64,000 nt of DNA from Bacteroidales bacterium (GTDB lineage: Bacteria > Bacteroidota > Bacteroidia > Bacteroidales > WCHB1-69): NCBI GenBank assembly GCA_016288655.1, contig JAEEKX010000039.1, positions 42,553 through 106,552 of the forward strand, given 5' to 3'. The position numbers and the translations under genes were made by a program. Below, piece by piece: positions 6,789 to 63,086 of this stretch (its first letter is position 1; each line of letters opens with the position of its first letter). The notes beneath the pieces are model-generated. The model saw nothing but the letters and a program-made list of their open reading frames with translations. It ran no database searches and had not been told where the DNA came from.

Positions 6789-7187
6789 TTAATACTGTAC
6801 GGATTTGGAAATACGTTCAGCGATATCCTTCATTTCATCATCGCTCAATTTACACTTGGGATTGGCGAAGTTGAGGTCGCCGACGCGGTTGATCGGGACG
6901 AGGTGGATGTGGGTATGAGGCACTTCGATGCCGATGACGGCGATGCCGATGCGGAGGCACTCCACATTCTTCTCGATGGCTTTCGCCACCTTTTTGGCGA
7001 ACACCATCATATCGGCCAACATCTTGTCGTCGAGGTCGAAGATATAGTCATTCTGCAACTTAGGGACAACGAGGGTGTGGCCCTTGGCGAGGGGGTTGAT
7101 GTCAAGGAAGGCGAAGAACTGGTCGTCTTCTGCGATTTTGTAGCAGGGAATTTCGCCCTTGATGATCTTGGTGAAGATGGTATCCAT
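6789..7187 (-). CDS. HIT family hydrolase
   Basis: A 132-residue histidine-triad protein of the Hint/protein-kinase-C-interacting type, which hydrolyse purine nucleoside phosphoramidates and related compounds. The start MDTIFTKIIKGEIPCYKIAEDDQ is classic, and the catalytic triad is present as HTHIHLVP near residues 92-99. The initiating ATG overlaps the greA stop codon by one base (TAATG), a strong sign of coupled translation. Confidence 0.95.
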   Translation of the reverse strand: MDTIFTKIIKGEIPCYKIAEDDQFFAFLDINPLAKGHTLVVPKLQNDYIFDLDDKMLADMMVFAKKVAKAIEKNVECLRIGIAVIGIEVPHTHIHLVPINRVGDLNFANPKCKLSDDEMKDIAERISKSVQY

Positions 7188-7660
7188 TATCGGGAGATTT
7201 TAAGGATTTCGAATTTGAGGATGCCGACGGGGGCGTTCACCTCCGCGATTTCGCCCACTTTTTTGCCCAATAAGCCCTTCGCGATAGGTGAGGTAACACT
7301 TATCTTGCCCGACTTGAAATCGGCCTCGGATTCAGGCACAAGGGTGTAAACAATTTCTTTATTACGCTTCATGTCCTTGACAGTAACGATAGAATAGAGC
7401 AGAACCTTGGAGATGTCGAGTTTGGATTCATCCAGAATGCGGGCGTTAGCAATGAGGGTCTGGAGGTTGGCGATCTTCATCTCTAAAAGTCCCTGGGCCT
7501 CCTTGGCGGAGTCGTACTCCGCATTTTCGGAGAGGTCTCCTTTGTCGCGGGCCTCGGCGATCATGGCGGAGATGCGGGGACGTTCCACGGATTCAAGATG
7601 TGCTAGTTCGGCTTTCAGTGCGGCCAAGCTTTCGGCAGAATAATATTTGATTTCACTCAT
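7187..7660 (-). CDS. greA: transcription elongation factor GreA
   Basis: Rescues backtracked RNA polymerase by stimulating transcript cleavage. The 157-residue protein has the expected N-terminal coiled coil (about residues 8-75, including the tip region ARDKGDLSENAEYDSAKE with the conserved acidic residues) and the C-terminal FKBP-like domain with PIAKGLLGKKVGEIAEV. It is the first gene after the strong hairpin at 7695-7725 and its stop overlaps the HIT start, so it probably heads the greA-HIT-hypothetical-tkt-lptF/G-GT-dxs run. Confidence 0.97.
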   Translation of the reverse strand: MSEIKYYSAESLAALKAELAHLESVERPRISAMIAEARDKGDLSENAEYDSAKEAQGLLEMKIANLQTLIANARILDESKLDISKVLLYSIVTVKDMKRNKEIVYTLVPESEADFKSGKISVTSPIAKGLLGKKVGEIAEVNAPVGILKFEILKISR

Positions 7661-7694
7661 GATTGATATGCTATGGGTTATGATATAAAATAAT

Positions 7695-7725
7695 ACTAAA
7701 GAGACCCGAAACAGGTCTCTTTAGT
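7695..7725 (-). terminator. hairpin terminator after the TonB/T9SS/PorV-like operon
   Basis: A perfect 12-bp stem, ACTAAAGAGACC and GGTCTCTTTAGT, closes a seven-base loop between the PorV-like stop and greA. On the minus strand it is followed by a T-rich but not pure run (ATTATTTTAT), so termination may be partial. Confidence 0.7.
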
Positions 7726-7749
7726 GTATGAGAAAATGTTGCACAAAAA

Positions 7750-8931
7750 TTAGAGGGCGAGCTTCAAGCCAACGCAATGGTTGCCGCCCCACTTGTTTGT
7801 GAAACGATAGGAATAGTCGAGATAGAGTCTGGTTGCCTGCTTGCCAGGTTCGAGTTTGGACTTCTTCTGCAACGGAATACCAAGGGTAGCGCCGAGGGCG
7901 GGACCCGTGTACCAAGTGGTGCACTTGTCAACGCTGAACATGCCCGTCTCGAAGTTGTAGCCGGCGCGGACCATGAAGATCTGACCGAGGCCGTATTCAA
8001 CACCAAGGGTGAAGATGTCGCGGGAGAAGGAGTTCGCGGTGAAGGAGCCGGCGAGGGTGATCCTGTGAGCGGCATCGTCGCGGGTGAGTTCCATATCCGT
8101 TCTGTCTCGCTTGGACATGTTTGCATACTCTTTACCCCAAATGAGGAAGTCGTAGGAAAGACCCAACACCAACATGGTGGGAATTTCGTAAGTGGCGGAA
8201 CGGCTTTCAAGCGTTTGTTCCCAAGCGAGGTCGTTGGCGTTGGCACGCACGGCCAGACCGTCACCCTTGTAATGCATCGGCAGGCCGATGTTCTTCAGGG
8301 TGATACCGATTTTGAAATTCTTGTAAGGACCGGTCAGATACTGCACGCCTGCGTCAATGGCAAAACCTGTGGCCTTGGCATCGTCGGCGCCGGTTTCAGT
8401 GACCACCTTCAAGGAAACACCACCATGAATGAAGTCGTTGAAACTCTTCGCATAGTGCAAGCACAAGTAGGAGAGTTTAGGCGAGAAAGTACCTTGGTTG
8501 CCTTCCGGCAAGGTTTCCGAGGTGATTTCAATGTCGCCAAATCCCATTGTGAAGAAAGAGAAGCCGATGACGCCTAAGTCGCGGACTTGTCCGGTTTGCT
8601 TGTTGGTGGAACGAAGGTGTTGTGCCAACGCGAAGGAACTGATGCCGATGCCAGCACCGGAGCCCACCAAATAGCGGGTGTGGGAAAATCCTATTTCGGT
8701 TCTGTTGACGAAGGCCATGCCACCGATGTTGGAGTGCATGGCTTCCAGTCCGCGGATCTCGGCCACACCGGCGGTTCCCCAACCGGTGGAACGAGCCCAC
8801 GGGTCAATCAGCAAGTGCTGCGCACCCGCCTGACCGGAACGGTCTCTGTTGCCGGCGAACACATTGCCCGTCATCGCACAGCAAAGCCCGATCAGCATAC
8901 AAATGACTAACGATTTCTGTAATTTATTCAT
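7750..8931 (-). CDS. PorV/PorQ-family outer-membrane beta-barrel
   Basis: A 393-residue protein with a signal peptide (MNKLQKSLVICMLIGLCCAM, cut near AFAG-type residues 'NVFAG') and a start of the mature part, AGAQHLLIDPWARSTGWGTA, that is typical of PorV/PorQ (UPF0164) proteins. The remainder is alternating amphipathic strands, ending GGNHCVGLKLAL. PorV binds T9SS sorting domains after translocation and carries cargo to the attachment machinery. Here the gene directly follows a giant T9SS cargo and a TonB receptor, so it may be a dedicated paralogue rather than the core PorV; I infer this from position only. Confidence 0.85.
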   Translation of the reverse strand: MNKLQKSLVICMLIGLCCAMTGNVFAGNRDRSGQAGAQHLLIDPWARSTGWGTAGVAEIRGLEAMHSNIGGMAFVNRTEIGFSHTRYLVGSGAGIGISSFALAQHLRSTNKQTGQVRDLGVIGFSFFTMGFGDIEITSETLPEGNQGTFSPKLSYLCLHYAKSFNDFIHGGVSLKVVTETGADDAKATGFAIDAGVQYLTGPYKNFKIGITLKNIGLPMHYKGDGLAVRANANDLAWEQTLESRSATYEIPTMLVLGLSYDFLIWGKEYANMSKRDRTDMELTRDDAAHRITLAGSFTANSFSRDIFTLGVEYGLGQIFMVRAGYNFETGMFSVDKCTTWYTGPALGATLGIPLQKKSKLEPGKQATRLYLDYSYRFTNKWGGNHCVGLKLAL

Positions 8932-8962
8932 AATCTTATATTTTTTTCAGTTATACCATTTG

Positions 8963-11900
8963 TTAGAATGCATTCAAGTCGGTAGGACGCATAGCAGCGA
9001 AGAACTTAAGCGTACGTTCACCAATGCCAGGTGCGTTGACATGAATAATGTAGATGCCGCTGGCGATCGGGATGTTGGCGGAGTTCTTCATATCCCAATC
9101 CACATAGGTAGTTGCGTCACCCTTGGTCAATCTGCGTACCAAGATGCCGCTGACCGTATAGATGGAGATGGTGACAGACTTGGCACCGTCTTCGTACGAA
9201 GGCAGGTTGACGATCTTCACATAGTTCTCCAACGCGGAACCTTCGTAGGTGGAGTAACCGTAGTACGGGTTCGGGACAATGTTGATCTTGTCGAGGATGC
9301 TCTCGTGGGTGCTCTCCTGAGCAGTCTGCACTGCGATGTTCTTCGTGGTGAAGCTGTACATCGGGTAGTTGTCGTTCTCCAAGGAGGCAGGGCCTTGACC
9401 CTGACCGGCGGAGTAACGCATGTACGGACGGCTGACACGCAACTTGATGGTCACGTCGTTGGACAGCCACTCACTTTCATGCATTTCGGCAGGCATCGGG
9501 ATGCTGGTCCACATCACATTGCTGAAGAGTTGCATCTTTCTGTTCATACGGGTCTGGTTGGACAGATCGGTTTCGTTCACGAAAGTGCTGAACTTGTTCA
9601 TCAGCCATTGACCTTCGTCGTACGCACCGCAGTCCTTGTCACTTTCGAACGAACGATTGATGTTGCTGACGTTCGGTCTCATGACCACAGAGTTGGTGTT
9701 ACCGGTGCTACCCACGATATAGATGTAGTGCTTGCCGCCCCAGCACGGGTTGGTGTAATAAGTGCCGTAGGAATCCGGGTAGTTGGCATAGAGATAATCG
9801 TAGGTGGGCTGGTCGATAGGATCGCCATTTTCGTCCACTGCGAAAATATTGGTGGGGTTGAAGAGCATGTCGTTACCGTTGTTGTCCGGGTCGGAGGAGT
9901 TCTCAGCGAACATGATGTTCAGGCGCTGACCGGTTTCAACGTTGATGGCATAGCCCGGGAACCAACCCATGCCATAACCCGTACCATCGGGATTACCGTT
10001 CTTGTCAACGGATTCGTGTTTTCTGGGCTCATGAGCGATGGCACCACCTTCCGATTTGGTGCGGTCATCGCAGGATTCGAGAACCACGCAACGGGTCCAC
10101 TTGTCTTTATCGGGAGTGAGCACGATATCGACGGAGTAGAGGTTGGTCATGGTCTGGTTGAAACCAGGCGAACAGTTGGTGGTACCCATCGTAGTAACAA
10201 GCCAATAAGCCGGGTCCGGAACCGGAGCGTCAGCGGCGCGGTTGTTATCGGGGACAATGAACTTAGCCATCGGGCCACCAGCGTACGGAGAACTCAATAC
10301 ATAAGGTGCCCAAGTTCCACCGAGAACACCTTCAAACTGAGCCAGCGGGTCTTTCCATGCACGAGCCGACCAGGTGCTGGTTGTGAGCGTACCAGGAGCC
10401 ATCAACATGAAGAAGTCTTCTGTTTTCCATTTGGCATATTCATCTTCAACACCATCCTGGACACCAGGAGCATCGTCCCACGGACCGGCTTCTTGGATAC
10501 CTGCACGGATCCAGTTGTCGGGATAGTCACCATCGACATCCACAACACCACCCAACCACGGTTTGGTTTCATCAGCATAGGTGATTTCCGCACCTAAGAA
10601 GTCAACCTGAGCATAACGGCTGAGATTTTTATAATTATTGCCACCATTCTTGGCCACATATTCGGCTAAGTTATCCTGATGGATGGCAAACTGGTAGTTG
10701 AGGATATTGACGGAAATACCAAATTCAGGAAGGAGTTGTTCATTGTTGACGGAGATGGAGGTCTGGGATTCGATTTCCATCGGGAATCCTTTATCATCAA
10801 TCATCACGTCGCCGTTTTCGTCAACCACCTGAAGAATCCAAGTGGCTTCTTCGGAAAGTTGGTCAAGTGTGTCAACGAATTTCAACACATAGTCGTTGGG
10901 CTGAATCTTCAACGGGTTGACAACCTTGACAGCGATAGGACCGTGGTCGTTCTTGTAGGTGACATGATCGACGGAGCCATTGGCAAGAATCTGATCGCGG
11001 GTCTCGTCGGTGATGTCGAGGAAGAAGCCGCCATTGCCCTGACCTTCAATACGGGTGATCATCGGCTGGGTACCATATTCGCAGTTGGCGACGGTACCAC
11101 CGTTTTCAGGAGTCGGATCATGCGGGATGCCCACATAAGGAGCGCCGCTGTTTTCTTTGTCACCGATGTTTCTACGACCAGCAAGGAAAGGAGTCTTCTG
11201 ACCTTCCAGACCATGGTCGGAGTTGGCTGCAATAGAGAAGGGCCAATAGTTGTTGTAAGCGTAAGCCAGAACCAGGAAGTAGTACTTCTTGTGGTTGATC
11301 AACTGGGTGGAGGTGGTAGCGAACTTATCTTCGGTGACCACGAAGGAGTGACGGATACCGAGGTTCTCGCCATCGACCATCAGATGCGGGGCAGAGGTGC
11401 CTATTGCATCGTCGTGGGTCCAGTTGACCAACTGGCTGGCTTCGTTCTGGATATCGCACTGGGCGATCAGACGAACCTTGTTCAAGTCTCCAATATCGGT
11501 GACGCTAACGTCAGCGGCAGCGCACTGATAAATCAAATAACCCTCGAAACGGTAGTGGTTGTCGAATTCGATAGTGTCGAAAGTGGAGACGTCGTGAGAC
11601 TGAAGAACGAAGGTGTCGATGCCGGAGATCGTGCACCAAATAGTGTCATAGACAGTGGTGTAGGTTTCGTCAACTCTATCAACCGGAATGGCCGGGTCTT
11701 CTTCTTCGTATTGTTCAGCGTAGTTGTTGCTGGTCTCAAGGTTGGTGAGGTAAAGGATCAATTGGTTGTTCAATTCTTCGATGGTGACGGTAGGAGCATC
11801 CGGACCGTCAAGGACCTTGAAGCAGTTCTCGAAAAGGGACTGACACTTGTCGTCGGCCACTTTCAAAGCATCGACGGATGCCTGGGCGCCACCGCTCGTA

Positions 11901-13636
11901 GCGCGAGCCCACGGAATACCGACGGTGATGTAGTTGACGGCACCGGCTTTCAAGGTGAAGGGGCCTGCGGACTGCATGAAACGGCGGTCGGCGGGAGCGT
12001 TGCCCACGGCACTTTCAGTCCAGCCTTCAGCGGAGAAGTTATAAGAGCTCGGATCGGGAACCACGCCCATCGTACCCCAGTTACAGGGGTCGGAAAGGCC
12101 GGGGAACATGAAGTCGCAGTCGAGGTCGCTGGCACCGTTCTGCGGGTGAGCGTTGGCACCATACTTCATCTTCAAGTTGTCAGCCCAGATACCGCGCAAC
12201 ATATTATAATAGCCGTATGCGACTTCGGGGTCGCCGACTACGGAATTGTCGTTGTTGTGATAGACGAAACGTCTCATACCGAAACGCTCGTTATCTTTAA
12301 TACCATCACCAAAGTTCACACCGTTGATGGCTTCTGCACGGATCATGACAAGAGAGTCAACAATCATTTCGTGGGCTTCAGTGGCATTCGGAGCAGGATC
12401 CCAAGAGAAGAGACCCAGGGTACCGTTGTTCGTCACGATGTCGCAATTTCCATTCATGGTCGGACCATATTCTGCACGGCCGTTGAAGGAGGGGTTGTCA
12501 TATCCATCGGGATCGAGATAGGGTCCTTGGAAGAAGTCAACACCGACCGCAGGCGGTTGGTTGCCGTAGTGCTGGGCCAGACCTTGACCATCAACGTTAC
12601 GGCCATTGTAGCAGTAACCCAAACCACGTGCGACGTCACAACCCACATAGTCGTCATCGGCCCAACCCAAGTCGGGGTCAACCCACTGTGAGAAGTAGGT
12701 CTTAGTCAAGTCGTAAGTGGAACGGTTGATGATCTCGTAGGAGTAGAAGGTCATGTTGTTCAACTCGTCGTTGGTGGAGAAACCGAATGCCTGGGCACGG
12801 ATTTCAAGACCGATAGGCTCACCCTGGGATTCGGTGTGCGGGCCGCCCTTATCGTTGAATATCCAGTAGAGGGTGGCGTCGCCTTTCAAGACGTGGTCGG
12901 CATAGACCATACCTTTGGAGATACCCATTCTCTCTTCGGGAGTCTTCGGCAGTTGGTCGGCAGCAGCCAATGCACGGTTCTTTTCAGTCCACGGACAGAG
13001 GTCGTTGTCGATGTCGTAGTAAGGATAGTCACCGTTTTCGGGATTGTAGTCACCGTCGCCGTCATTGTCGTAGAACGGAGCCAAGTAGTAGGACTGTCCG
13101 GCGGAGAGATCCATCGGGTGGGCAGGCCAGTTACGGATGGAGTTCGGCATGACATAGTCGGCGTTCATCCAGTTGGCGATGTGGTTTTCGACCTCAGCAC
13201 GGGTGATGGGGAAGTGCTTGTCGTATGCGGCGCAGGTCTCCTGGGTGACGGAAGCACCGTTCAGGGTCAGAGGACCCGTCCAGAAGTCATCACCTCTTTG
13301 ACGGAATCTCACGGCGGCCAACTTCAGCACGTCGTTGATATCCATACCACCGATCCAAAGAGCGGCGGCGAACATGGAAGTCTTGCCGGAGCCGTAAGGC
13401 ACCTCGTACTGTGCGATTTCATTGAACCACATGGTACCGTTCGTCTCCAGGTAAGCTCTGACATTGTTGACCGTAAGTTCGTTGGAGTTGGTAGCCGGCA
13501 AGCAGGTGGAAGCCGCACGAGGAGTCATGCTCCGCGGAGTGGCCGTACCGCCTTTGTACTTTTCAGCATGCAACGAACTGACGGCAAGCATCAATCCTGC
13601 TAAAAATAAAATCTTAAAGGTGTTTTTCATATTCAT
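8963..13636 (-). CDS. giant T9SS-sorted surface protein (1557 aa)
   Basis: A signal peptide (MNMKNTFKILFLAGLMLAVS) is followed by about 1430 residues without a domain I can name and a C-terminal type A-like T9SS sorting region starting at NIVPNPYYGYS and ending TLKFFAAMRPTDLNAF. The early part contains MFAAALWIGGMDINDVLKLA and an Asp-rich loop DNDGDGDYNPENGDYPYYD that looks like a calcium-binding repeat; the middle contains an ERFGMRRFVYHNND segment, which I recall from other uncharacterised Bacteroidota surface proteins. It should be exported by Sec, cross the outer membrane through T9SS and remain on the surface or be released. It sits 22 bases after the TonB receptor and 31 before the PorV-like gene. 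Function unknown. Confidence 0.88.
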   Translation of the reverse strand: MNMKNTFKILFLAGLMLAVSSLHAEKYKGGTATPRSMTPRAASTCLPATNSNELTVNNVRAYLETNGTMWFNEIAQYEVPYGSGKTSMFAAALWIGGMDINDVLKLAAVRFRQRGDDFWTGPLTLNGASVTQETCAAYDKHFPITRAEVENHIANWMNADYVMPNSIRNWPAHPMDLSAGQSYYLAPFYDNDGDGDYNPENGDYPYYDIDNDLCPWTEKNRALAAADQLPKTPEERMGISKGMVYADHVLKGDATLYWIFNDKGGPHTESQGEPIGLEIRAQAFGFSTNDELNNMTFYSYEIINRSTYDLTKTYFSQWVDPDLGWADDDYVGCDVARGLGYCYNGRNVDGQGLAQHYGNQPPAVGVDFFQGPYLDPDGYDNPSFNGRAEYGPTMNGNCDIVTNNGTLGLFSWDPAPNATEAHEMIVDSLVMIRAEAINGVNFGDGIKDNERFGMRRFVYHNNDNSVVGDPEVAYGYYNMLRGIWADNLKMKYGANAHPQNGASDLDCDFMFPGLSDPCNWGTMGVVPDPSSYNFSAEGWTESAVGNAPADRRFMQSAGPFTLKAGAVNYITVGIPWARATSGGAQASVDALKVADDKCQSLFENCFKVLDGPDAPTVTIEELNNQLILYLTNLETSNNYAEQYEEEDPAIPVDRVDETYTTVYDTIWCTISGIDTFVLQSHDVSTFDTIEFDNHYRFEGYLIYQCAAADVSVTDIGDLNKVRLIAQCDIQNEASQLVNWTHDDAIGTSAPHLMVDGENLGIRHSFVVTEDKFATTSTQLINHKKYYFLVLAYAYNNYWPFSIAANSDHGLEGQKTPFLAGRRNIGDKENSGAPYVGIPHDPTPENGGTVANCEYGTQPMITRIEGQGNGGFFLDITDETRDQILANGSVDHVTYKNDHGPIAVKVVNPLKIQPNDYVLKFVDTLDQLSEEATWILQVVDENGDVMIDDKGFPMEIESQTSISVNNEQLLPEFGISVNILNYQFAIHQDNLAEYVAKNGGNNYKNLSRYAQVDFLGAEITYADETKPWLGGVVDVDGDYPDNWIRAGIQEAGPWDDAPGVQDGVEDEYAKWKTEDFFMLMAPGTLTTSTWSARAWKDPLAQFEGVLGGTWAPYVLSSPYAGGPMAKFIVPDNNRAADAPVPDPAYWLVTTMGTTNCSPGFNQTMTNLYSVDIVLTPDKDKWTRCVVLESCDDRTKSEGGAIAHEPRKHESVDKNGNPDGTGYGMGWFPGYAINVETGQRLNIMFAENSSDPDNNGNDMLFNPTNIFAVDENGDPIDQPTYDYLYANYPDSYGTYYTNPCWGGKHYIYIVGSTGNTNSVVMRPNVSNINRSFESDKDCGAYDEGQWLMNKFSTFVNETDLSNQTRMNRKMQLFSNVMWTSIPMPAEMHESEWLSNDVTIKLRVSRPYMRYSAGQGQGPASLENDNYPMYSFTTKNIAVQTAQESTHESILDKINIVPNPYYGYSTYEGSALENYVKIVNLPSYEDGAKSVTISIYTVSGILVRRLTKGDATTYVDWDMKNSANIPIASGIYIIHVNAPGIGERTLKFFAAMRPTDLNAF

Positions 13637-13658
13637 AATATTTTATTTCAACGGTGAA

Positions 13659-16600
13659 TTAAAATGAGAAATTGACACCCAGGCGGACACGGGTCGGCAT
13701 GGTGTAGTTGTACGGATCAGCAACTCTCATTCTGTAGTACCCAATGTAGGCGGCCACATCGACCTGAGAGTTGATCTGTTGTTGGTATTCGTTGGCGGTG
13801 AGGTAACCATCGTCATCGGCATTACCGGTGTATTGATAAACATAGATGACGTTCTTGAAGTTGAACAGGTTCATCACATCGAGATAGACATTGAGGAAGG
13901 CCTGCTTGGTGGGCTTGCCAGTCTCTTCGTCTTTCTTGAGGTTGAGGACGAAGGTCTTGTCAACGCGGATATCGCACTGGAAGATCCACGGCATGTTGGA
14001 ACCGTTGATGGTACCGGTAAGTTGGCTCTTACCAACGCCGAGGATGGAGGAGTAGGGCTTGCTGGAACGGCTGTAGGGCAGACCTGAACCGGCGGAGAAG
14101 TTGATGTTGACACCGAAGTTCTCCAACCATCTGATCTCTCTGGAGGTGGTGCCATCCTTAGAAACCTTTGTGGATGTGGGTCCTTTGTAATCAGTACCCA
14201 TGCCAAAGCGGTAGTCGATGTTGGCGCTCAGTTTGTGACGCTGGTCGAAACTGAGGTTGGTAAGGGTTCTGAGGTTCGGCTGACCGGAGGCGATGATGGC
14301 CAAACTGGAGGTCTCGCTGGAACCGGTACCCTTGGCGAACTGGAGGGTGTAACTGGCACGCAGGGTCACGTTTCTGGTACGGCGAAGGTCGTAGCCGACG
14401 GTGAAGCCTTGAACGGTACCGAAGTCGATGTTGTCGTAAGAATAGTAGGTGGAGGGATAAGCACCGGTGTAACGGTAGCACTGCACCTGATCACGTTTTT
14501 CGGAATAGTAAGCGGAGAGGCTGATGGCGGAGTTCTCGCCGATTGCCTGACGGAAACCGATTTCGTAGTCGATGCTCTTGGAAGGTTTCAGACTCGGGTT
14601 GTTGATGACGTTGTTCTGGTTGGAACCGAGTTTTTCAACCCAGAGGTAGCTGATAGGATCGAGACGGAGGTCGGAGGGACGCACGGTGATAATGTTGTAG
14701 TGTGCGTAGAAGAGGGATTTGCTGGAGACGTTGAAGGAGAAGGAGAGACGAGGCATCACGGACCATTGGGGTTCGTATTTGGAGAAGGCGGAACCTTCAA
14801 CTTTGGATACTGCCGTCTCGTTGAGTTCGTTCTTCAGGATCGGGCCGCCGGTGGCACCCAACACGGTGGAGGGGTCGGTGACGACGGCACCTTCAGAGTC
14901 GTACCAGTTGTGACCCTTACGGTAGGCAACGATGCTGGCGTTGTCGGGGTCGAGGGTCTTGTCGAGTTGGTTGACATAGACTACCCAATCGTCTTCGGCG
15001 TTGGAGGCGACATCATAGACATCGCGAACTTCGCCGACCTTGTATGCCTCACGGAAGAGGTAGGGGTCATTCAACACATACTGGTTAGCGTCGAAACGGT
15101 CAACACGCAAGCCGATGTTGAACATCATCGTGTTGATGGAGAACTTATCCTGGATGTACATGGCCATGTAGATAGGTTCGTAGGCACCGACGTTGTAAAG
15201 TTTGTCACCGTATTTGTCGGTCTTGTTGAAGAAGTCGTTGATGTCGGTCTTCTTGGTGTATTTCTTGGTGCCGGTGTAGTCATATCCATAATAAGATATA
15301 TAGGTAGAACCACCATTGAAGAGTTCTTCGGGGGAGAACATGCTCAGGGAGAACTGGTCGGGCGACATATTGTCGATGTCGATCCAGTCTTTACCATCGG
15401 GGTCAAGGCCGAGGGACTTACGGAGATTGCGGTCGAAAGTCGTCTGGGCTTCGGCGTCGAAATATCTGTCGTACATGACAGTGTCATCACCGACGATGTA
15501 GGGATGATCCGTATCAAGTTCGCTGATGTGGTAGTTGGCGCTGCTTCTCATCAAGGTCCAGAGCCCGTAAGGAGAGACGCCGAAGGAACGGTTGGTACGT
15601 TTCTCAAAGATGTAACCCAACTTAAAGTCGTGGTTCTTGATGGTCAGGGACAAACTGGCGTTGGCGCCGATCTGGTCCTCAGCGGATTTGCTGTAGGAAC
15701 CACGCACAGTACCGGGAGCCTGGAAGAGGCTATAGACTGCGTCCGGAGAGTCGCCGTTGAGCAGAGCACCGAACTGCTGGTAGAGGGTCTTGTTGTAAGG
15801 AATCACACCGAAGTATTCGTAGATGGTCTCGGGAGAGTAGGTGTCAGTGAATGTGGTGACGTAAGGAGTAAGGTCAGGGTTGGTGTTGAGCGACTGGTCA
15901 TTGCTGCCGAACGGGATGGGGCTGAACTCCACGATGGAGTCGTAGATGTTGGCAAGAATGTTCATGTCGTAGTACCTGATGGAGTCAATGGTGATGTCGC
16001 CGCGTTGGAAAGCCATGGCCTTAGTGCTCTTGAAGTAGCCAATGTGGCCATAGTTGAATAAGTTGTCCTTATGGTTGACGTCACGGGTCCAGGTATCGTA
16101 GTGGGTGTAGTTGACGTTGATGTTATACATTATATTTTTAATAGCACTCGAATCGGACTTGAGGGGGATTCTGTGCTGGAGTCTCGCATTGACACGCCAG
16201 GTGTTGATTTGGCTTTGGCTGTTGTTGTGGGCGTTGAAGAGGGCGTAGTAGCTGTCTGACCAGTTTTTGTATCTGGTGAATTCGTACATGCCGCCAATGG
16301 AGAGACTGATGTTGTTGGTTTCACCGAAGAGGAAGTCGAGTTTACCTTGAAGGAGGTAGTTGAAGTTGCCGGCGTTGTCTCTTACACGCTGTTTGTGGAA
16401 GTTCTCTTCGTGGAGATATTCCGCGTTGGAGTAGTGGGCACCGAACTCGGTAGCGCTGTAGCGGTAGGGGTGTTGGATGAGGTAGTCGATGGTTTCGTCG
16501 TTGGCGCGCCAGGTGCCTCCGCGGGCGGGAGAACCGTCCTTGTCGTAACTGACATCTCCAGTGAGGAGGAAGCCGACGCGGGCGGGCTGGCCTTGTGCTT

Positions 16601-17372
16601 TGGGTTTGGCGAGCGGGCCGGTGAGGGAGACAGAACCGAGGAAGTTGTTGTAGCCATCAAGCGAACCCATCAACTCGACAGAGCCGTGGAGGTCTTTCGA
16701 GATGCCCTTGGTGGTGATGATGGTGAAGGAGTTACCGTCACCATACTCAGCGGGGATACCGCCCTGGATCAACTCGACCTGTTCGATGGATGCCATGGAG
16801 ACGCCGCCGGTACCACGAACGATCACACCGTCGATCATAGTTTTCTGACCGTCACCACGGTTACCACGCACGGACTGCATCTTACCGTCGATGGCGGTTA
16901 CACCAGCGGCAGTGGAGATGGCACCCGTAACATCGTGACCCGGCTGCTGACGCACCGCGCTAGCGTCAAGAATTGTCGTCGTCTTCGTGTTGTCCTGGTC
17001 AATCAGCGGGCGGACATAGATGATTTCGATACCGAGGTCAAGATCTTCTGCGCCGCAGGTGATCTGTGCATCCATGATCAAGGTAGAACCCGTGTACTGA
17101 ACATCTCTGATTGTTTTCTTTTTGCCGCATTGGCCCATCTCTGCGTCGAACACCAAGTCGTAGGTGCCGATGGACACACCATGCAGTTGGTAATTGCCTT
17201 CCGCATCGGTCATCGTGTAGTTTACATCATTACCCTCCTTTTGAAGTTGGACGTTGATGTATGGAAGCGCGACTCCGGTTTGGTCGGTGACCTTACCTTT
17301 AATGCCTTGAGCAGATGCAAAACTGCCGAGAAGGAAGACTGCCACAAGCGTCAAGAGTAACTTTTTTACCAT
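13659..17372 (-). CDS. TonB-dependent receptor with carboxypeptidase-like N-terminal domain
   Basis: Outer-membrane active transporter, 1237 residues. A signal peptide (MVKKLLLTLVAVFLLGSFAS) precedes a CarboxypepD_reg-like domain (GIKGKVTDQTGVALPYINVQ), a plug domain (about residues 130-230, with GVTAIDGKMQSVRGNRGDGQ and VELIQGGIPAEYGDGNSF) and a long barrel ending in the aromatic C-terminus RVRLGVNFSF. The track starts at a TTG two codons earlier; the ATG at 17372 is preferred. No SusD-like partner follows; instead the next genes are the giant T9SS protein and the PorV-like barrel, so the surface partner, if any, is T9SS-exported. Substrate unknown. Confidence 0.95.
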   Translation of the reverse strand: MVKKLLLTLVAVFLLGSFASAQGIKGKVTDQTGVALPYINVQLQKEGNDVNYTMTDAEGNYQLHGVSIGTYDLVFDAEMGQCGKKKTIRDVQYTGSTLIMDAQITCGAEDLDLGIEIIYVRPLIDQDNTKTTTILDASAVRQQPGHDVTGAISTAAGVTAIDGKMQSVRGNRGDGQKTMIDGVIVRGTGGVSMASIEQVELIQGGIPAEYGDGNSFTIITTKGISKDLHGSVELMGSLDGYNNFLGSVSLTGPLAKPKAQGQPARVGFLLTGDVSYDKDGSPARGGTWRANDETIDYLIQHPYRYSATEFGAHYSNAEYLHEENFHKQRVRDNAGNFNYLLQGKLDFLFGETNNISLSIGGMYEFTRYKNWSDSYYALFNAHNNSQSQINTWRVNARLQHRIPLKSDSSAIKNIMYNINVNYTHYDTWTRDVNHKDNLFNYGHIGYFKSTKAMAFQRGDITIDSIRYYDMNILANIYDSIVEFSPIPFGSNDQSLNTNPDLTPYVTTFTDTYSPETIYEYFGVIPYNKTLYQQFGALLNGDSPDAVYSLFQAPGTVRGSYSKSAEDQIGANASLSLTIKNHDFKLGYIFEKRTNRSFGVSPYGLWTLMRSSANYHISELDTDHPYIVGDDTVMYDRYFDAEAQTTFDRNLRKSLGLDPDGKDWIDIDNMSPDQFSLSMFSPEELFNGGSTYISYYGYDYTGTKKYTKKTDINDFFNKTDKYGDKLYNVGAYEPIYMAMYIQDKFSINTMMFNIGLRVDRFDANQYVLNDPYLFREAYKVGEVRDVYDVASNAEDDWVVYVNQLDKTLDPDNASIVAYRKGHNWYDSEGAVVTDPSTVLGATGGPILKNELNETAVSKVEGSAFSKYEPQWSVMPRLSFSFNVSSKSLFYAHYNIITVRPSDLRLDPISYLWVEKLGSNQNNVINNPSLKPSKSIDYEIGFRQAIGENSAISLSAYYSEKRDQVQCYRYTGAYPSTYYSYDNIDFGTVQGFTVGYDLRRTRNVTLRASYTLQFAKGTGSSETSSLAIIASGQPNLRTLTNLSFDQRHKLSANIDYRFGMGTDYKGPTSTKVSKDGTTSREIRWLENFGVNINFSAGSGLPYSRSSKPYSSILGVGKSQLTGTINGSNMPWIFQCDIRVDKTFVLNLKKDEETGKPTKQAFLNVYLDVMNLFNFKNVIYVYQYTGNADDDGYLTANEYQQQINSQVDVAAYIGYYRMRVADPYNYTMPTRVRLGVNFSF

Positions 17373-17429
17373 AATCAAACTAATTTATATTAAACAATTA
17401 TTTTATTCTAAAATTAGCCCGCTAATTTA

Positions 17430-17437
17430 CAAAAATA
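17430..17437 (-). promoter_or_regulatory. candidate promoter -7 box for the TonB/T9SS/PorV-like operon
   Basis: Minus strand TATTTTTG matches TAnnTTTG, 57 bases before the receptor ATG, in the AT-rich gap after the small membrane protein gene. No convincing -33 element is visible at the ideal spacing. Confidence 0.5.
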
Positions 17438-17489
17438 TTACAAGCCGTACATTAGTATGGCTTCAATTTTTTCTTTTTTTTATAATCGC

Positions 17490-17882
17490 CTAAAAATCAG
17501 GTCTTTTTAAAATTATTGAATAAATGATTCCCTTTTTGATTTCATCTTCGTCGAATCGCAAATCGGTAATTTTTTCTTTCTCATTTTCAGTAGTTTGCGA
17601 GTAAACGTCTGAAGAAAAAGCATCGTTTTTCGGGGATTCCGCAAAAGAGGGCTTGCCGTTGGCATCCAACGTTTCATAGGTGAAAATTTCGCCGTTTTTC
17701 GGATAATTTTCCGCTTTTGACCGCAAATCCGATGGCGGAATCTCCTCTTCCTGCACAAATTCGTTCTCGGGTTCCTCCCCTATCGGATAGGGTTGGGGCT
17801 TGGGTTGCGGCGGGGGCGACTTCTTGGCTAAAACGAACGACGCCACCACGGACAAGATGATAAATATCAGTAATCCACTCAC
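17490..17882 (-). CDS. hypothetical single-pass membrane protein
   Basis: The track frame starts inside antisense mutS; I place the start at the GTG at 17882, 24 bases after a -7 box, giving 130 residues. It opens with one membrane helix ([18 protein letters not shown]), then a proline-rich stretch ([15 protein letters not shown]) and an acidic, polar tail with no recognisable domain. The short cytoplasmic N-terminus and positive residues after the helix leave topology uncertain. It is divergent from mutS and runs toward the TonB receptor operon. The start is inferred from promoter position, not from homology. Confidence 0.55.
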
Positions 17883-40838: not shown

Positions 40839-42206
40839 TTAGCGAGCGATGGTAACTTTGGAGGTGAAGACTTCGTTGCCGTTGACGACGCGCACAACGT
40901 AGATGCCCTCGGTGAGGTTGGAGACGTTGATTTGCTCGTTGGCATTGGCGGATTCGATGTTCATGACTTCCTGACCAGCGATGTTGTAGATGCTGATCTG
41001 AGCGCCGGCGGCGTTGTCAACAGTGATCTGGTTGCCAGCGGGGTTCGGGAAGACATTCAGCGTGTTGGTGTTCTCATTGATACCGTTGTCATAGTGGACG
41101 GTAACGCAGTAGGTGTTGTTTTCGGTGTTGGGGTCAACGCCGTTGTAAGCATCGGTGCTCTGGTACTCAAGGTTCATGCAGAGCTGCAGGTCTTCGTTGG
41201 GCCAGTTGAAACCGTTGTCATTGATATCCTGAACGTCGGCGTTCATATCGAACAGACCGAAATCCCAACGCCAACCGTAGTACAAGTCAACGGTATCTTC
41301 TACGGTGTTGAGTTGTTCGTGATCAATGAAATAGAACGGAGTGGCACCATCGAGGTAGATGCTGAGGGTGTAAAAACCGATAGACTGGTCAACGCCATAG
41401 TTGAAAGCGCCACCATAGAAATAGACGGAGTCGGTGTAGGAGTCAACGGTGAAGCCGGTGACTTCATCAGGATAGGTCTGTTGGTCTTCAGGATCGTAGA
41501 TTTCGCAGATGAAATCGCTCTTCGGCTGGTAGGGAAGACCATCATCGTAGTAAACGCTCAAGAGGAAGGGCTTGTGGGAAGCGATGAGTTCACCATATGG
41601 GTCGTATTCGCTACCGAATACCCAGTGATGGTAACCGTTTTCGGCATTGTCGGCGAAGAGGGCGAAGTTGTTGTCGGCGCAGGTGCTGTCGGTGGGGCAG
41701 AGGCAGACAGCAGCGGCCTCAGCGGCATAGATACCGATGACGACGTCACCAGTAGCGGGGACAGTGAAGGGGGTGTTGAGGGTGGCAACGTTGATGCCTA
41801 AGCCCTCATCGCCTTCCGGAACAGTGTAGTTCTGGGTATAGACGGGGGTACCGAGGATAACGTTGTTGTGTTCTGCATCGTAAGTCACATCAGTGTAGAT
41901 ACGGATGACATAGGTCTCGTTGTTGAAAGTACCAGTATAACCAGTGACGTGGTCGCTGGTGGTATGGTAGAAGCGGACTTGCGTGAGGGTTGCACCAGCG
42001 GGAATGTCACCTTGGGGAATGCGGAGCACATACTCACTTTCAGCAGCCATGACATAGACGGAACCGGAGGTGGAGTTGAAGCCATACCAATCGGAACGCT
42101 CGCTGGCAGGAAGTTGGACCTGGGTAGTGGTGTTCACCAACAGACCCTGCGCAAAAGACATCGTTACAAATGCCATTGCAATGCAAAGAGTAAAGAATTT
42201 TTTCAT
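40839..42206 (-). CDS. T9SS-sorted secreted protein (455 aa)
   Basis: Signal peptide MKKFFTLCIAMAFVTMSFAQ, a beta-rich body without recognised catalytic domain, and a type A T9SS sorting domain over the last 75 residues (NVFPNPAGNQITVDNAAGAQ to VFTSKVTIAR). The body contains a Cys-rich loop (CLCPTDSTC) and repeated phrases typical of adhesion-like domains. It has its own promoter and terminator and is probably a surface or released protein of unknown role. Confidence 0.9.
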   Translation of the reverse strand: MKKFFTLCIAMAFVTMSFAQGLLVNTTTQVQLPASERSDWYGFNSTSGSVYVMAAESEYVLRIPQGDIPAGATLTQVRFYHTTSDHVTGYTGTFNNETYVIRIYTDVTYDAEHNNVILGTPVYTQNYTVPEGDEGLGINVATLNTPFTVPATGDVVIGIYAAEAAAVCLCPTDSTCADNNFALFADNAENGYHHWVFGSEYDPYGELIASHKPFLLSVYYDDGLPYQPKSDFICEIYDPEDQQTYPDEVTGFTVDSYTDSVYFYGGAFNYGVDQSIGFYTLSIYLDGATPFYFIDHEQLNTVEDTVDLYYGWRWDFGLFDMNADVQDINDNGFNWPNEDLQLCMNLEYQSTDAYNGVDPNTENNTYCVTVHYDNGINENTNTLNVFPNPAGNQITVDNAAGAQISIYNIAGQEVMNIESANANEQINVSNLTEGIYVVRVVNGNEVFTSKVTIAR

Positions 42207-43568: not shown

Positions 43569-44135
43569 ATGCTGATAATTGGAATAACGGGAACGTTGGG
43601 TGCAGGCAAGGGCACCGTGGTGGATTACCTCAAGGAGAGGTATGGTTTCGAGCACTTTTCGGTGCGCGAGTTTTTGAAAGGCGAGGTGTTGAAGCGCGGG
43701 TTGGAGCCGAACCGTGACACCTTCACCTCTGTGGCGAACGACTTGCGGGCGCACCACACTCCGTCGTACATTGTGGATCAACTTTACGAGCAGGCGGCCC
43801 GCTGCGGGAAAAGTGCCATCATAGAGAGCATCCGCACGCCTGGCGAGATCGACTCGCTGCAAGGCAAGTCCGACTTCCGCCTCTGGGCTGTTGATGCCGA
43901 CCCGCAGGTGCGTTACCAGCGCGTGGTGTTGCGCAAGTCGGAGACGGATTCCGTCAGTTACGAAACCTTCCTCGCCAACGAGCGTCGCGAGATGACTTCG
44001 AGCGACCCCAACAAGCAGAACCTGTCGGAGTGCATCCGCCGTGCCGACGCCGTTCTGCTCAATAATGGCACGATGGAGGAGTTATATCAACAAGTGGAAA
44101 GTGCCATCCATCGGCATCAACAAACAACCAAATAA
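43569..44135 (+). CDS. P-loop nucleotide kinase-like protein
   Basis: A 188-residue protein with Walker A GITGTLGAGKGTVVDYL and an arrangement like dephospho-CoA kinase or the kinase-like domain fused to some dCMP deaminases: SVREFLKGEVLKRGLEPNRD, then the aspartate-bearing strand AIIESIRTPGEIDSL. The true substrate is unknown. The stop lies ten bases before the radical SAM gene start, suggesting co-transcription. Confidence 0.8.
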   Translation: MLIIGITGTLGAGKGTVVDYLKERYGFEHFSVREFLKGEVLKRGLEPNRDTFTSVANDLRAHHTPSYIVDQLYEQAARCGKSAIIESIRTPGEIDSLQGKSDFRLWAVDADPQVRYQRVVLRKSETDSVSYETFLANERREMTSSDPNKQNLSECIRRADAVLLNNGTMEELYQQVESAIHRHQQTTK

Positions 44136-44145
44136 CCTTACTGTC

Positions 44146-44919
44146 ATGTTTCTCTGGGATCACATTGCTTTCGGACCCATCCACAGCCGCCGCCTCGGGC
44201 AGTCGCTGGGGATCAACATTTCACCGACCGACGTGAAGGTCTGTTCGTTCGACTGTGTCTATTGCGAATGCGGATGGACGTTGAGGAAGGAGATCGACCC
44301 GAGCCGGTTCGCGTCGGCCGACCTCGTGATGCAGGCCATCGAAAAGAAGTTGCGCGAGTGCAGCGAAGCGAAAGTGCCGGTGGATAGCATCACTTTTTCC
44401 GGCAACGGCGAATCGACGCTGCATCCGCAGTTCGCCGAAATCATCGAGCGGCTGTTGGTTTTGCGCGACCGTTACTATCCCGACTCCGTCATCACCTGCT
44501 TGTCGAATGCCACGCAGTTGCAAAAGGAGACTGTGCGGGCGGCGTTGTTGAAAATCGACAACCCGATGCTGAAGTTGGATGCGGGGCTGCCGGACCTATA
44601 CCAAACCATCAATCGTCCGACGATACCGATCACGATGGAGGAGACAGTGGCCGGAATGCGCGAGTTTCACGGCAACTTCATCATGCAGTCGTTGTTTCTG
44701 CGTGGCGAGGTCAATGGGGTGAAGTTCGACAACACCACCGAGGAGAATCTGGTGGCATGGCTCCAGATTTTGGCAGAGTTGACGCCGCGCCATGTGGAGT
44801 TGTATTCGTTAGACCGCGAGACGCCGGCGAAACAGTTGGTGAAGATTGACGGCGCCGGATTGGAGGCGATTGCCGAGCGCGTGCGTGCCTTGGGCATAGA
44901 AGCGCGCGTGTTTGTGTAG
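44146..44919 (+). CDS. radical SAM protein
   Basis: A 257-residue radical SAM enzyme. The ATG at 44146 gives MFLWDHIAFGPIHSRRLGQS; the track's earlier start lies in the upstream gene. The cluster motif is CSFDCVYCEC (CxxxCxxC), followed by the glycine-rich SAM segment TFSGNGESTLHPQF. It resembles the short, single-domain family of COG0731-like wybutosine-type enzymes, but without the extra domains needed to assign a reaction. Confidence 0.88.
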   Translation: MFLWDHIAFGPIHSRRLGQSLGINISPTDVKVCSFDCVYCECGWTLRKEIDPSRFASADLVMQAIEKKLRECSEAKVPVDSITFSGNGESTLHPQFAEIIERLLVLRDRYYPDSVITCLSNATQLQKETVRAALLKIDNPMLKLDAGLPDLYQTINRPTIPITMEETVAGMREFHGNFIMQSLFLRGEVNGVKFDNTTEENLVAWLQILAELTPRHVELYSLDRETPAKQLVKIDGAGLEAIAERVRALGIEARVFV

Positions 44920-53736: not shown

Positions 53737-57540
<3,804 letters not shown>

Positions 57541-57563
57541 TAACACACAAACCTGTAAAGAAA

Positions 57564-60500
57564 ATGGCTTTTAGAAAAGATACTAATACAAGGAAAGAGT
57601 TCTCCACCATCACGGTGAGCTTGGCGTCGCCCGAGATGATTCTCGAGCAATCGCACGGCGAGGTGATCAAGCCGGAAACCATCAACTATCGGACTTACAA
57701 GCCCGAGCGCGACGGCCTGTTCTGTGAGAAGATCTTCGGTCCCACCAAGGACTGGGAGTGCCACTGCGGTAAGTACAAACGCATCCGTTACAAGGGCGTG
57801 GTGTGCGACCGTTGCGGTGTGGAAGTCACCGAGCGTAAAGTGCGCCGCGAGCGCATGGGCCACATCCAGTTGGTGGTGCCCGTGGCTCACATCTGGTTCT
57901 TCAAGAAGATCGCAGCCCTGCTTGGTATTCCCTCCAAACAGGTGGATGCCATCATCTACTACGAAAAGTACGTGGTGATCCAGCCCGGCGTCGCCCAGGA
58001 GATCAAACTCAATGAGAAGGACAAAGAGGGCATCCAGCCCCTGACGCTGCTCACGGAAGAGGAGTACTTCGAGGTTGTCGATCAACTCCCGCAGGAGAAC
58101 CGTCTGCTCGACGACAACGACCCCAACAAGTTCATCGCCAAGATGGGTGCCGAGGCGCTTTACGACCTCCTCCAGAAGGTCGATCTTGACAAGGAGTCGT
58201 ACGAGTTGCGCGACCGCGCCAACGTGGAGACCTCCCAGCAGAGAAAACAGGACATCCTCAAACGCCTCCAGGTGTTCGAGGCATTCCGCGATTCCCGCAA
58301 ACGCGCGGAGAACAAGCCGGAGTGGATGATTGTGAAGATCATCCCCGTCACTCCGCCGGAACTCCGCCCGCTCGTTCCCCTCGATGGCGGCCGCTTCGCC
58401 ACCTCCGACCTGAACGACCTCTACCGTCGCGTCATCATCCGCAACAACCGTCTGAAGAGACTCATCGAGATCAAGGCCCCCGACGTCATCATGCGTAACG
58501 AAAAACGTATGCTCCAAGAGGCCGTTGATTCCCTCTTCGACAACTCCAAGAAGACCAACTCCGTGAAGACCGAAACCAACCGCGCTCTCAAGTCGTTGTC
58601 CGACAGTTTGAAGGGCAAGCAGGGTCGTTTCCGTCAGAACTTGTTGGGTAAACGTGTGGACTACTCTGGCCGTTCGGTCATCGTGGTCGGTCCCGAACTG
58701 CACATGAACGAGTGCGGTCTGCCGAAAGACATGGCCGCCGAGTTGTTCAAGCCGTTCATCATCCGCAAGATCTTGGAGCGCGGCATCGTGAAGACCGTCA
58801 AATCGGCCAAGAAGATTGTCGATCGCAAGGATCCCCTCATTTGGGACATTCTGGAGAACATCCTGAAGGGTCACCCAGTGCTTTTGAACCGTGCGCCTAC
58901 CTTGCACCGTTTGGGTATCCAGGCCTTCCAGCCCCGTCTGGTCGAAGGCAAGGCCCTCCGTCTGCACCCCCTCGTCTGTACGGCTTTCAACGCCGACTTC
59001 GACGGTGACCAGATGGCTGTGCACGTACCGCTGGGCAATGCCGCCGTGATGGAGGCGCAGATTCTGATGCTCTCTTCGCACAACATCCTCAACCCCGCCA
59101 ACGGCTCCCCGATCACCGTTCCTTCGCAGGACATGGTGTTGGGCCTCTATTACATCACCAAGCCCCTCAAATCGACGGAAGATATGAAGGTGCCCGGCGA
59201 AGGCATGTGCTTCTACTCTCCCGAAGAGGTCATCATCGCCTATAACGAAGGCAAGATCCACCTCAACGCCACCATCAAGTGCCGTGTCAACCTCGAAGGT
59301 GACGGCAAGATGGTGCTCACCGAGACCACCGTGGGCCGCGTGTTGTTCAACCAGGTTGTTCCCGAGAACTACGGCTACATCAACAAATTGCTCACCAAGA
59401 AGGCCCTGCGCGACATCATCGGCAGTGTCTTGCACAAGTGCGGCAACGCAGCCACCACCAAGTTCCTCGACGACGTGATGGGCATGGGATTCCGCATGGC
59501 ATTCGTGGGCGGCCTCTCCTTCAACTTGGGCGACGTGCTCATCCCCGAAGAGAAGGCCGAACTCATCGCCAAGTCCAATGAATTGGTCGATGAGATCCAG
59601 ATGCAGTATGAATACGGTAACATCACCAACACCGAACGTTCCAACCAGATCATCGACGTTTGGACGCACACCAACGCCAACTTGAGTAAGGTGCTGATCA
59701 AGAAGATCGCCGCCGACCGTCAGGGCTTCAACCCGGTGTATATGATGTTGGATTCCGGCGCTCGTGGATCTGAGACCCAGATCCGTCAGTTGGCCGGTAT
59801 GCGTGGTCTGATGGCGAAACCGACGAAGGCGGGTGCCTCCGGCGGCGAAATCATCGAGAACCCGATTCTTTCGAACTTCAAGGAGGGCCTCTCCGTGTTG
59901 GAGTACTTCATCTCCACCCACGGTGCCCGTAAGGGTCTGGCCGATACCGCTCTGAAGACCGCTGACGCAGGTTACCTGACCCGTCGTTTGGTCGATGTCT
60001 CCCACGATGTCATCATCACCGAGGAGGACTGCGGCACCCTGAGAGGTTTGACCATCACCGCATTGAAGAAAAACGAGGAGATCATCGAGACCCTTGGCAA
60101 CCGTCTGCTGGGCCGCGTGACCCTGCACGACGTCTATAACCCGAAGACCAACGAAATCATCGTAAAGGCCGGCGAGGAGTTGACAGAGGACATCTGCCAG
60201 GCCATCGAGGAGTCCGGCATCGAGGAGGTGGAAATCCGTTCGGTGCCCACCTGCGAGTCGAAGCACGGCATCTGCCAGAAGTGCTACGGTCGCAACTTGG
60301 CCACCGGCAAGATGGTGCAGATCGGCGAGGCCGTCGGCGTCATCGCTGCACAGTCCATCGGCGAGCCGGGTACACAGTTGACCCTGCGTACCTTCCACGT
60401 TGGTGGTGTGGCAGGCAACGTTGTCGCCAACAGCCGTATCCAGGCCAACAACGACGGTCTGCTCAGCATCGACGAACTCCGTGCGTTGGAGAAGGTTGAT

Positions 60501-61847
60501 GAGAATGGCAAGACCTACTACATTGTCATCGGTCGTTCCGCCGAGATGAAGATCATCGACGTGAACACCTCCGTGGCTCTCTTCTCCGCCAACATCCCTT
60601 ACGGCGCCAAGTTGTACTTCAAGCACGGCGACAGCGTCAAGAAGGGCGACATCATCGCCGACTGGGATCCGTTCAACGCCGTCATCCTCTCCGAAGTCGC
60701 CGGTAAGATCGACTTCAAGGACATCATCGAGGGCGTCACCTACCGTGTGGAGACCGACGAACAGGCCGGCACGCACGACCGCGTCATTGTGGAGAGCCGT
60801 CTCAAGACCAAGACCCCGACGATTTTGGTCAACGATGCCGAGGGTAACACCATCAAGACGTTCGACATCCCGGTGGGTGCCCGTCTGTCGGTGGAGCCTG
60901 GCGACACCATCGAGTCCGGCGCCATCTTGGTTAAGATTCCGCGTTCCTTCGGCAAGTCGGGCGATATCACCGGCGGTCTGCCGCGTGTCACCGAGTTGTT
61001 CGAGGCCCGTAACCCCTCCGATCCCGCCATCGTCTCCGAAATTGACGGCGTCGTCTCCTTCGAGAAGAAACTCAAACGCGGTAACCGCTGCGTCAGCATC
61101 ACCTCGAAGACCGGCGAAGTAAAACAGTATCTTATCCCCGCCTCCAAGCAGATCCTGGCTCAGGAGAACGACTACGTGAAGGCAGGCACCCCGCTTTCCG
61201 AAGGTGCCCTCACGCCGTCCGACATCTTGAACATCAAAGGTGCCATGAAGGTGCAGGAGTACATCGTCAACGAAATCCAGGAGGTCTATCGTCTGCAAGG
61301 TGTGAAGATCAACGACAAACACTTCGAAGTCATCGTGCGTCAGATGATGCGCAAGATGGAGATCGAAGACCCGGGCGATACCAAGTTCTTGCAGGGTGAG
61401 TTGATCAACAAGGTCGATTTTCAGGAGGAGAACGACAACATCTGGGAGATGAAGGTCGTAACCGACGCCGGCGACAGCACAGAGTTCGTCAAGGGTCAGA
61501 TTGTGACTCCCAAGCAGTTGCGTGATGAGAACTCGCTGTTGAAGCGCCGTGACCAGAAGACTGTGGAGGTGCGCGATGCCAAGCCCGCCACCGGCAAGCC
61601 GATTCTGCAGGGTATCACCCGCGCATCCTTGCAAATCCGTAGTTTCATCTCCGCGGCATCCTTCCAGGAGACCACCAAGGTGCTCACCAACGCCGCCATC
61701 AACGCCCAAGCCGACCATCTGCTGGGTTTGAAGGAGAACGTCATCGTGGGACACCTCATCCCCGCCGGAACGGGCCTGAAGAGATATCAGAACCTTGAGG
61801 TCAGTTCCATGGAGGAATACGAAAGTCTCATGGCTTCCAAAGAGTAA
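57564..61847 (+). CDS. rpoC: RNA polymerase beta' subunit
   Basis: 1427 residues. The N-terminal zinc site [20 protein letters not shown], the catalytic [20 protein letters not shown] holding Mg, the bridge-helix and trigger-loop region [20 protein letters not shown] and the second zinc site [15 protein letters not shown] are all intact. It starts 23 bases after rpoB. A complete antisense open frame (57537-61850) covers the gene but is a codon-usage shadow. Confidence 0.99.
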
Positions 61848-61856
61848 CAAATTTTC

Positions 61857-62478: not shown

Positions 62479-62727
62479 ATGAAATTCTACGACAGGGAAT
62501 GGGAGATGGACTTGCTGGCTGAAAATACCATTCAGAACAATTACCATGTGTTTGCTGTCCTACAGGATTCTCATGTAACTTTAAAGGCAGGCGATGAAAT
62601 CATTCTGACGGATGGATTTCGTGTGGGTAACGGAGGGGTTTTTGTCGCCAAAATTGAGGCATGTGAACCTGATGATGGAGATGGAATGCCAAATCTGACT
62701 GGCATCGGGGAACGCGCCCTGTTGGGT

Positions 62728-62761
62728 GGACGCACGCAGGACGGACGCACGCGGTGCGTCC
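62728..62761 (+). repeat. palindromic repeat inside the T9SS fragment
   Basis: GGACGCAC-GCG-GTGCGTCC (62743-62761), preceded by a direct half-copy GGACGCACGCA (62728-62738). It translates as GGRTQDGRTRCVPT in the linker before the sorting domain. Confidence 0.6.
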
Positions 62762-63009
62762 CTACAGACAACGGTTTGACCATTTACCCGAACCCCACCG
62801 GCGGTACCCTGACGGTGGAATCGGCCAGCCCCATCCGCGAAATCACCGTGTACGACCTGTCGGGCCGGGTGGTTGTTGTGGCGCAAAATTTTGCGCCTCA
62901 ACAATACGCCATCAACGTGTCATCCCTGCAAAACGGCCTCTACCTCCTGAAGGCCGTGACCGACAGCGGCGTGCAGACGGCACGGTTCGTGAAAAAACTG
63001 AAAGGTAAA

Positions 63010-63027
63010 GACAACGCATGCGTTGTC
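63010..63027 (+). repeat. perfect 18-bp palindrome GACAACGCATGCGTTGTC
   Basis: It overlaps the 3' end of the T9SS fragment and is nearly identical to the copy at 63119-63136. Confidence 0.65.
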
Positions 63028-63086
63028 TCAAGGGGTTGGATTATTCTTTGAAATTGTCGTACATTTGCAGGCGCAAAAAATTGTAA

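Follow-up and report, generated by a model that had tools for sequence, protein, structure and literature searches.

The window analysed here is a stretch of 64,000 nucleotides from a Bacteroidales bacterium with a genome size of 2.26 Mb. It contains three genes on the minus strand that are separated by gaps of 22 and 31 bases, and the coordinates agree with a first-pass annotation of the same DNA. The upstream gene (13659..17372, with an ATG at 17372) encodes a TonB-dependent receptor of 1237 amino acids. It is followed by a gene (8963..13636) for a giant surface protein of 1557 amino acids, which has a Sec signal peptide without a lipobox and is predicted to be of the type IX secretion system (T9SS) type. 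The last gene (7750..8931) encodes a PorV-family outer-membrane barrel of 393 amino acids, which we propose to be a dedicated carrier or anchor. The giant protein ends in a C-terminal sorting domain (CTD; 8966..9289, minus strand, approximately residues 1450-1557) with a predicted type-A-like beta-sandwich, and its last nine residues (8966..8992, minus strand) form an extension past the usual type A CTD end that terminates in Phe.

An intrinsic terminator on the minus strand (7725-7695) closes the operon. A hairpin with a stem of 12 bp had been annotated at this site; the hairpin is indeed present, but its perfect stem measures 14 bp. It has a loop of 3 bases, a T-rich tail and a folding energy of -20.3 kcal/mol, and it folds far more strongly than shuffled sequence (z = -6.2). 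An imperfect hairpin between the receptor gene and a small upstream gene (17442..17463, minus strand; AAGCCATACTAATGTACGGCTT, then a T-rich stretch) is a candidate for the upstream boundary; the hairpin scan listed it on the plus strand. A full Bacteroidetes-type promoter consensus was not found in the region before the receptor gene. Judged from the spacing and the terminator, the three genes, called the module below, look like one transcription unit.

The small flanking gene (17490..17882, minus strand, GTG start) encodes a membrane-anchored protein of 130 amino acids, whose membership in the system is uncertain. It belongs to no Pfam family. Its N-terminal hydrophobic segment and a C-terminal tail like F-LRKAVIYSEILNRPY are common to the genes at this position in most loci of the order (L038-L076). 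Downstream of the module, behind the terminator, lie greA (7187..7660, minus strand; 172 bits with the NCBIfam model GreA) and a gene of the HIT family (6789..7187, minus strand), the order homologs of which contain the motif HNHIHLVP. Both genes hold their position behind the module throughout the class, and not in other classes. In other classes, the flanks of the triad (L126-L144) repeatedly contain genes for PIG-L, NHL and GWxTD proteins and for a multihaem cytochrome with TPR repeats, but these neighbours are variable and no shared function emerged from them.

Ordinary type A sorting-domain proteins are encoded elsewhere in the window at 40839-42206 (minus strand) and 62479-63051 (plus strand), and frames of more than 1400 codons are present on both strands of the stretch 57537-61850. 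Elsewhere in the genome, open frames that match T9SS sorting domains lie on contigs C6 (around 16051; about 7900 codons), C31 (around 25851; about 7700 codons, a weak match) and C1 (around 49548; about 6700 codons).

Gene order, co-inheritance and co-occurrence with SprA

The first-pass annotation had suggested a search for the same gene order across Bacteroidota and had named its loss in related genomes as a ground for rejection; the proposal withstood this check. The order receptor, giant protein, PorV-like barrel was retained in 36 of 39 loci from the same order, with greA and mostly the HIT gene next to it. Elsewhere in the phylum it was kept in 32 of 40 loci, a figure counted by eye on gene maps, the remainder of which includes contig ends and gene-calling gaps. 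Most of 80 loci from a separate scan, which overlaps the other sets in that some contigs come from the same assemblies, show this order as well, with the receptor gene upstream in 76 (median gap 29) and the PorV-like gene downstream in 74 (median gap 32.5). Exceptions to the full module are the loci L061, L074 and L056, which have a missing gene or an intruder. In L056 the PorV-like gene and greA are separated by an inserted second copy of the giant gene, and L061 contains, at 7491-11579, a giant-protein paralog behind a gene for 1212 amino acids and without a PorV-like gene.

The order was sampled with 149 genomes from about 120 families, i.e., roughly one genome per family. Homologs of the giant protein were found in 66 of them, and in the phylum 119 of 248 genomes had matches, some of which are weak or partial. 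Giant protein and receptor occurred together in 63 genomes of the order and were both absent from 82. Thus, the two were found together in 63 of the 66 genomes with the giant protein, which bears out the co-occurrence that the earlier annotation had proposed to check. The giant protein occurred without the receptor in three genomes (one with a weak match, one only 82% complete), and the receptor occurred without the giant protein once, as a weak match that is probably a paralog. All 59 matches to the PorV-like protein fell within the 63 genomes that have both other proteins. Fisher tests of co-occurrence yielded values of about 4e-37 and 4e-34, uncorrected for the relatedness between genomes. 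Because the sampling comprised about one genome per family, the co-inheritance exceeds what shared descent of a few clades would explain.

The presence of the giant protein also coincides with that of SprA, the translocon of the T9SS. SprA is encoded in the source genome (2521 bits), in 65 of the 66 giant-bearing genomes of the order, and in every genome of the phylum sample that has a giant-protein match at E<1e-4. The phylum sample includes 57 genomes without SprA, and most of those listed belong to one family, so that the p-value of the association suggests more independent events than there are; two weaker matches to the giant protein (E 2e-4 and 7e-4) fall in this family.

The sorting domain and the PorV-like barrel

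Full-length homologs of the giant protein are present throughout the order, with about 35-60% identity, and the CTD is a strongly conserved part of the family. As read from the sequence, the N-terminus is a hydrophobic Sec signal that ends in ...SSLHA-E and has no lipobox Cys. No Pfam domain scored above its cut-off. The CTD reached 16.9 and 21.6 bits with the type A model TIGR04183, and thus stayed under the curated cut-off of 23. A profile search of the PDB retrieved only weak matches to PorZ (E 0.05) and PorU (E 0.23), which are strengthened by a fold search: the predicted structure of the CTD (mean pLDDT 78) is a beta-sandwich, its best Foldseek match in the PDB is PorZ (5m11, E 1.3e-5), and it aligns with the CTD of RemZ (8gl8_D) with a TM-score of 0.65 by target length. 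Since the predicted fold finds both PorZ and the RemZ CTD, the giant protein is, by its predicted fold, a T9SS-type protein, and the co-occurrence with SprA backs this assignment. The view that this protein is exported by the T9SS had already been put forward and gains support from both lines of evidence; we infer its export and anchoring with good support. The N-terminal half of the protein has no clear relative among solved structures (TM 0.17-0.26). A reading of this half as a glycoside hydrolase was rejected, as its likeness to super-sandwich domains of the GH15/GH94 type is weak, and a predicted similarity to sugar enzymes of this size is too slight to name a ligand.

The end of the CTD sets the module proteins apart. 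The distance from the GxY motif to the C-terminus is 30-32 residues in 69 of 79 module giant proteins (31 in the protein described here), and the last residue is F or Y in 68 of the 79. By comparison, 20 CTDs of the ordinary type A from the same genome always have a distance of 21-22 residues and end in K, R, Q, L or N. The giant protein therefore departs from the usual type A end, which lies 21-22 residues past GxY and is mostly basic or polar. Because the CTD tails of other triads (see below) have an ordinary length, the terminal Phe or Tyr marks the module ortholog and one close paralog (L309).

The third protein of the module had been annotated as a shuttle like PorV or PorQ. It scores 115.7 bits with the NCBIfam model PorV_fam (NF033709, cut-off 90), and is thus a member of the PorV family, and it matches the solved structure of PorV (6h3i_F, E 2.1e-4). 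However, it lies outside the equivalogs for PorV, PorQ and PorV2, with 45.4, 46.8 and 41.5 bits against cut-offs of 250, 220 and 325, respectively. A canonical PorV (next to PorU), PorQ and PorV2 are encoded elsewhere in the same genome, and therefore the module barrel is a further member of the family. The PorV2 equivalog (468.7 bits) is located on contig C49 at 43787-44893 (L228, 8787-9893). A phylogenetic tree was built from 50 module proteins together with 19 PorV and 19 PorQ sequences, most of which come from the genomes that supplied the module proteins; further PorV paralogs from expanded genomes are not part of it. In this tree the module proteins form one clade (99/98) apart from PorV (100/99) and PorQ (100/99), and the branching inside this clade broadly tracks the host groups. 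The uniform extra tail of the CTD, together with a separate and always adjacent clade of carriers, is the best evidence that the two fit each other.

The receptor, paralogous triads and SusD

The receptor has a signal peptide ahead of a CarboxypepD_reg domain (PF13620, 43.9 bits), a Plug domain (PF07715, 29.7 bits) and a barrel (PF00593, 50.2 bits). All three are above the Pfam cut-offs, and the presence of plug and barrel makes it a TonB-dependent receptor, as annotated before. A putative TonB-box-like stretch and the plug motif are kept across the receptor homologs (alignment of 71 sequences), and SusC/RagA models are absent from its NCBIfam matches. The annotated absence of a SusD gene from the operon can be extended to the whole source genome.

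In some lineages a single genome yields 9-25 matches to the PorV family. Forty-seven genes from these expanded lineages, picked as PorV-like regardless of their neighbours, were inspected, and 32 of them are the third gene of a triad of receptor, CTD protein and PorV-family protein; three of the loci (L126-L128) were module loci. Another four of the 47 directly follow a receptor gene. With the sorting domain cut off from the profile, 21 of 36 CTD proteins in the expanded lineages still matched the module protein. The number of SusD proteins was 0-3 in 18 of 19 genomes with the module and 5-39 in eight genomes without it, a comparison that is suggestive only, as the genomes were hand-picked (p about 2e-4). 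The remaining module genome (G310) has 59 SusD, and thus the module and SusD systems are not mutually exclusive.

Proposed function, rival explanations and known systems

Each part of the module belongs to a known family. No published description of the triad or of a Phe-ended sorting domain was found in a search that did not extend to subscription journals and preprints. The trio seems to be a counterpart, not yet described, of the SusCD nutrient importers. We propose, with a probability of about 0.6, that the module is a TonB transporter with an extracellular partner that is delivered via the T9SS and kept in place by a PorV-like barrel of its own. Gene order, co-inheritance, T9SS co-occurrence, the predicted CTD fold, the carrier clade and the paralogous triads were computed directly; export, stable anchoring, a complex of receptor and cargo, and import would be the steps built on them. 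The giant protein would cross the inner membrane by the Sec pathway and the outer membrane through SprA, and its CTD would be received by the PorV-like barrel of the adjacent gene. This barrel probably retains the protein on the surface with its CTD uncleaved, as in the pairs PorQ-PorZ and PorV-PorU, and the Phe-ended tail may be part of a specific grip. The surface-held protein would then pair with the TonB barrel in place of a SusD-type surface lipoprotein and bind or cap an extracellular ligand, which the receptor would import with TonB energy. An accessory surface protein delivered by the T9SS with its own shuttle was the idea of the first-pass annotation, and it fits the predicted CTD fold, the co-occurrence with SprA and the separate PorV-like clade. 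Points against the importer model are the CTD score below the cut-off, the incomplete or interrupted loci, the 59 SusD of G310, the linkage to greA, and the N-terminal half without a clear solved relative.

The main rival to the importer account is a fixed complex for surface assembly or envelope maintenance, in which the three proteins would form a scaffold or a platform for adhesins that serves housekeeping and imports nothing; we regard it as unlikely. The constant position next to greA speaks for it: throughout the order the module is usually a single copy next to the greA and HIT genes, and such a linkage, seen in a single class, suggests housekeeping more than nutrition. Full-length conservation is high for a surface protein, and FadL-type barrels can be structural, as shown by the BAM complex of the phylum (PMC12611786). 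However, the receptor has an intact plug and a putative TonB-box-like stretch, other lineages carry numerous paralogous triads in each genome, as is common for importers, and SusD counts are low where triads occur.

It seems improbable that the giant protein follows the route of ordinary type A substrates, with transport by the main PorV carrier, cleavage by PorU and attachment to LPS, while the PorV-like gene has another role. The type A-like fold of the CTD and a genome with PorV, PorU and about 85 type A CTDs would agree with such a route, whereas the C-terminal extension and the Phe end are missing from the 20 ordinary CTDs, the giant protein is strictly paired with a separate PorV clade, and its nearest fold is PorZ, which is anchored by PorQ (PMC5562754). 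The TonB barrel might also aid the export or release of the giant protein rather than import a ligand, by analogy to Myxococcus xanthus, in which the secretion of PopC requires Oar (PMC6434023). This precedent of a TonB barrel acting in secretion and a receptor without a SusD partner speak for such a role. We nevertheless consider this role highly improbable, since the CTD together with the co-occurring SprA already provides a sufficient export route.

If the importer model is true, TonB import and type IX secretion, two hallmarks of the phylum, would be joined in one machine. The many PorV-family paralogs that are so far unexplained would gain a function, a variant of the CTD would be recognized together with the carrier specific to it, and one could see how complexes of receptor and partner may be built in lineages that lack SusD. 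The carrier and the Phe-ended CTD would be a simple testable pair for how the T9SS chooses whether to release a protein, link it to LPS or anchor it permanently. A wider generalization, which we offer tentatively and to which we give slightly less than an even chance, is that the triads form a second major class of TonB importers in Bacteroidota, ancestral to the phylum, with a T9SS-delivered and PorV-anchored partner, and that SusCD-rich lineages have largely lost it.

Several known systems resemble the module in part. In SusCD systems, too, a TonB barrel works with a large partner outside the cell, as is proposed here, and paralogs have multiplied in some lineages. The module is not a SusCD system, because it has no SusD partner and its receptor lies outside the SusC/RagA models; in addition, its partner would arrive via the T9SS and not as a lipoprotein. 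The BAM complex of Bacteroidota with BamG and BamH (PMC12611786, PMC12578637) likewise consists of a FadL-type barrel with large extracellular partners. However, the BamG barrel and its partners, which are lipoproteins, belong to other families, a TonB receptor is not part of the complex, and the BAM core is universal in the phylum, unlike the module, which was therefore not assigned to BAM.

Other parallels are found within the T9SS. In P. gingivalis PorQ holds PorZ and PorV holds PorU at the cell surface (PMC5562754). As in these pairs, a PorV-family barrel would hold a CTD-bearing surface protein, and the predicted fold of the module CTD is closest to that of PorZ. In contrast, the module barrel is a separate clade, its partner is no sortase, the CTD has a Phe-ended extension, and the operon includes a TonB receptor. 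Type B substrates of F. johnsoniae use carriers that are encoded next door (PMC12618676), and the system of type B CTDs with PorP/SprF shuttles (PMC12618676, PMC9143113) shares with the module the shuttle gene directly downstream and a dedicated carrier that sets the final location. The module differs from it by the type A-like CTD fold and the upstream TonB receptor, and it is not a type B system, since its carrier is a member of the PorV family and not of the PorP/SprF type. The module unites the carrier family of PorQ and PorV with the gene arrangement of the type B systems.
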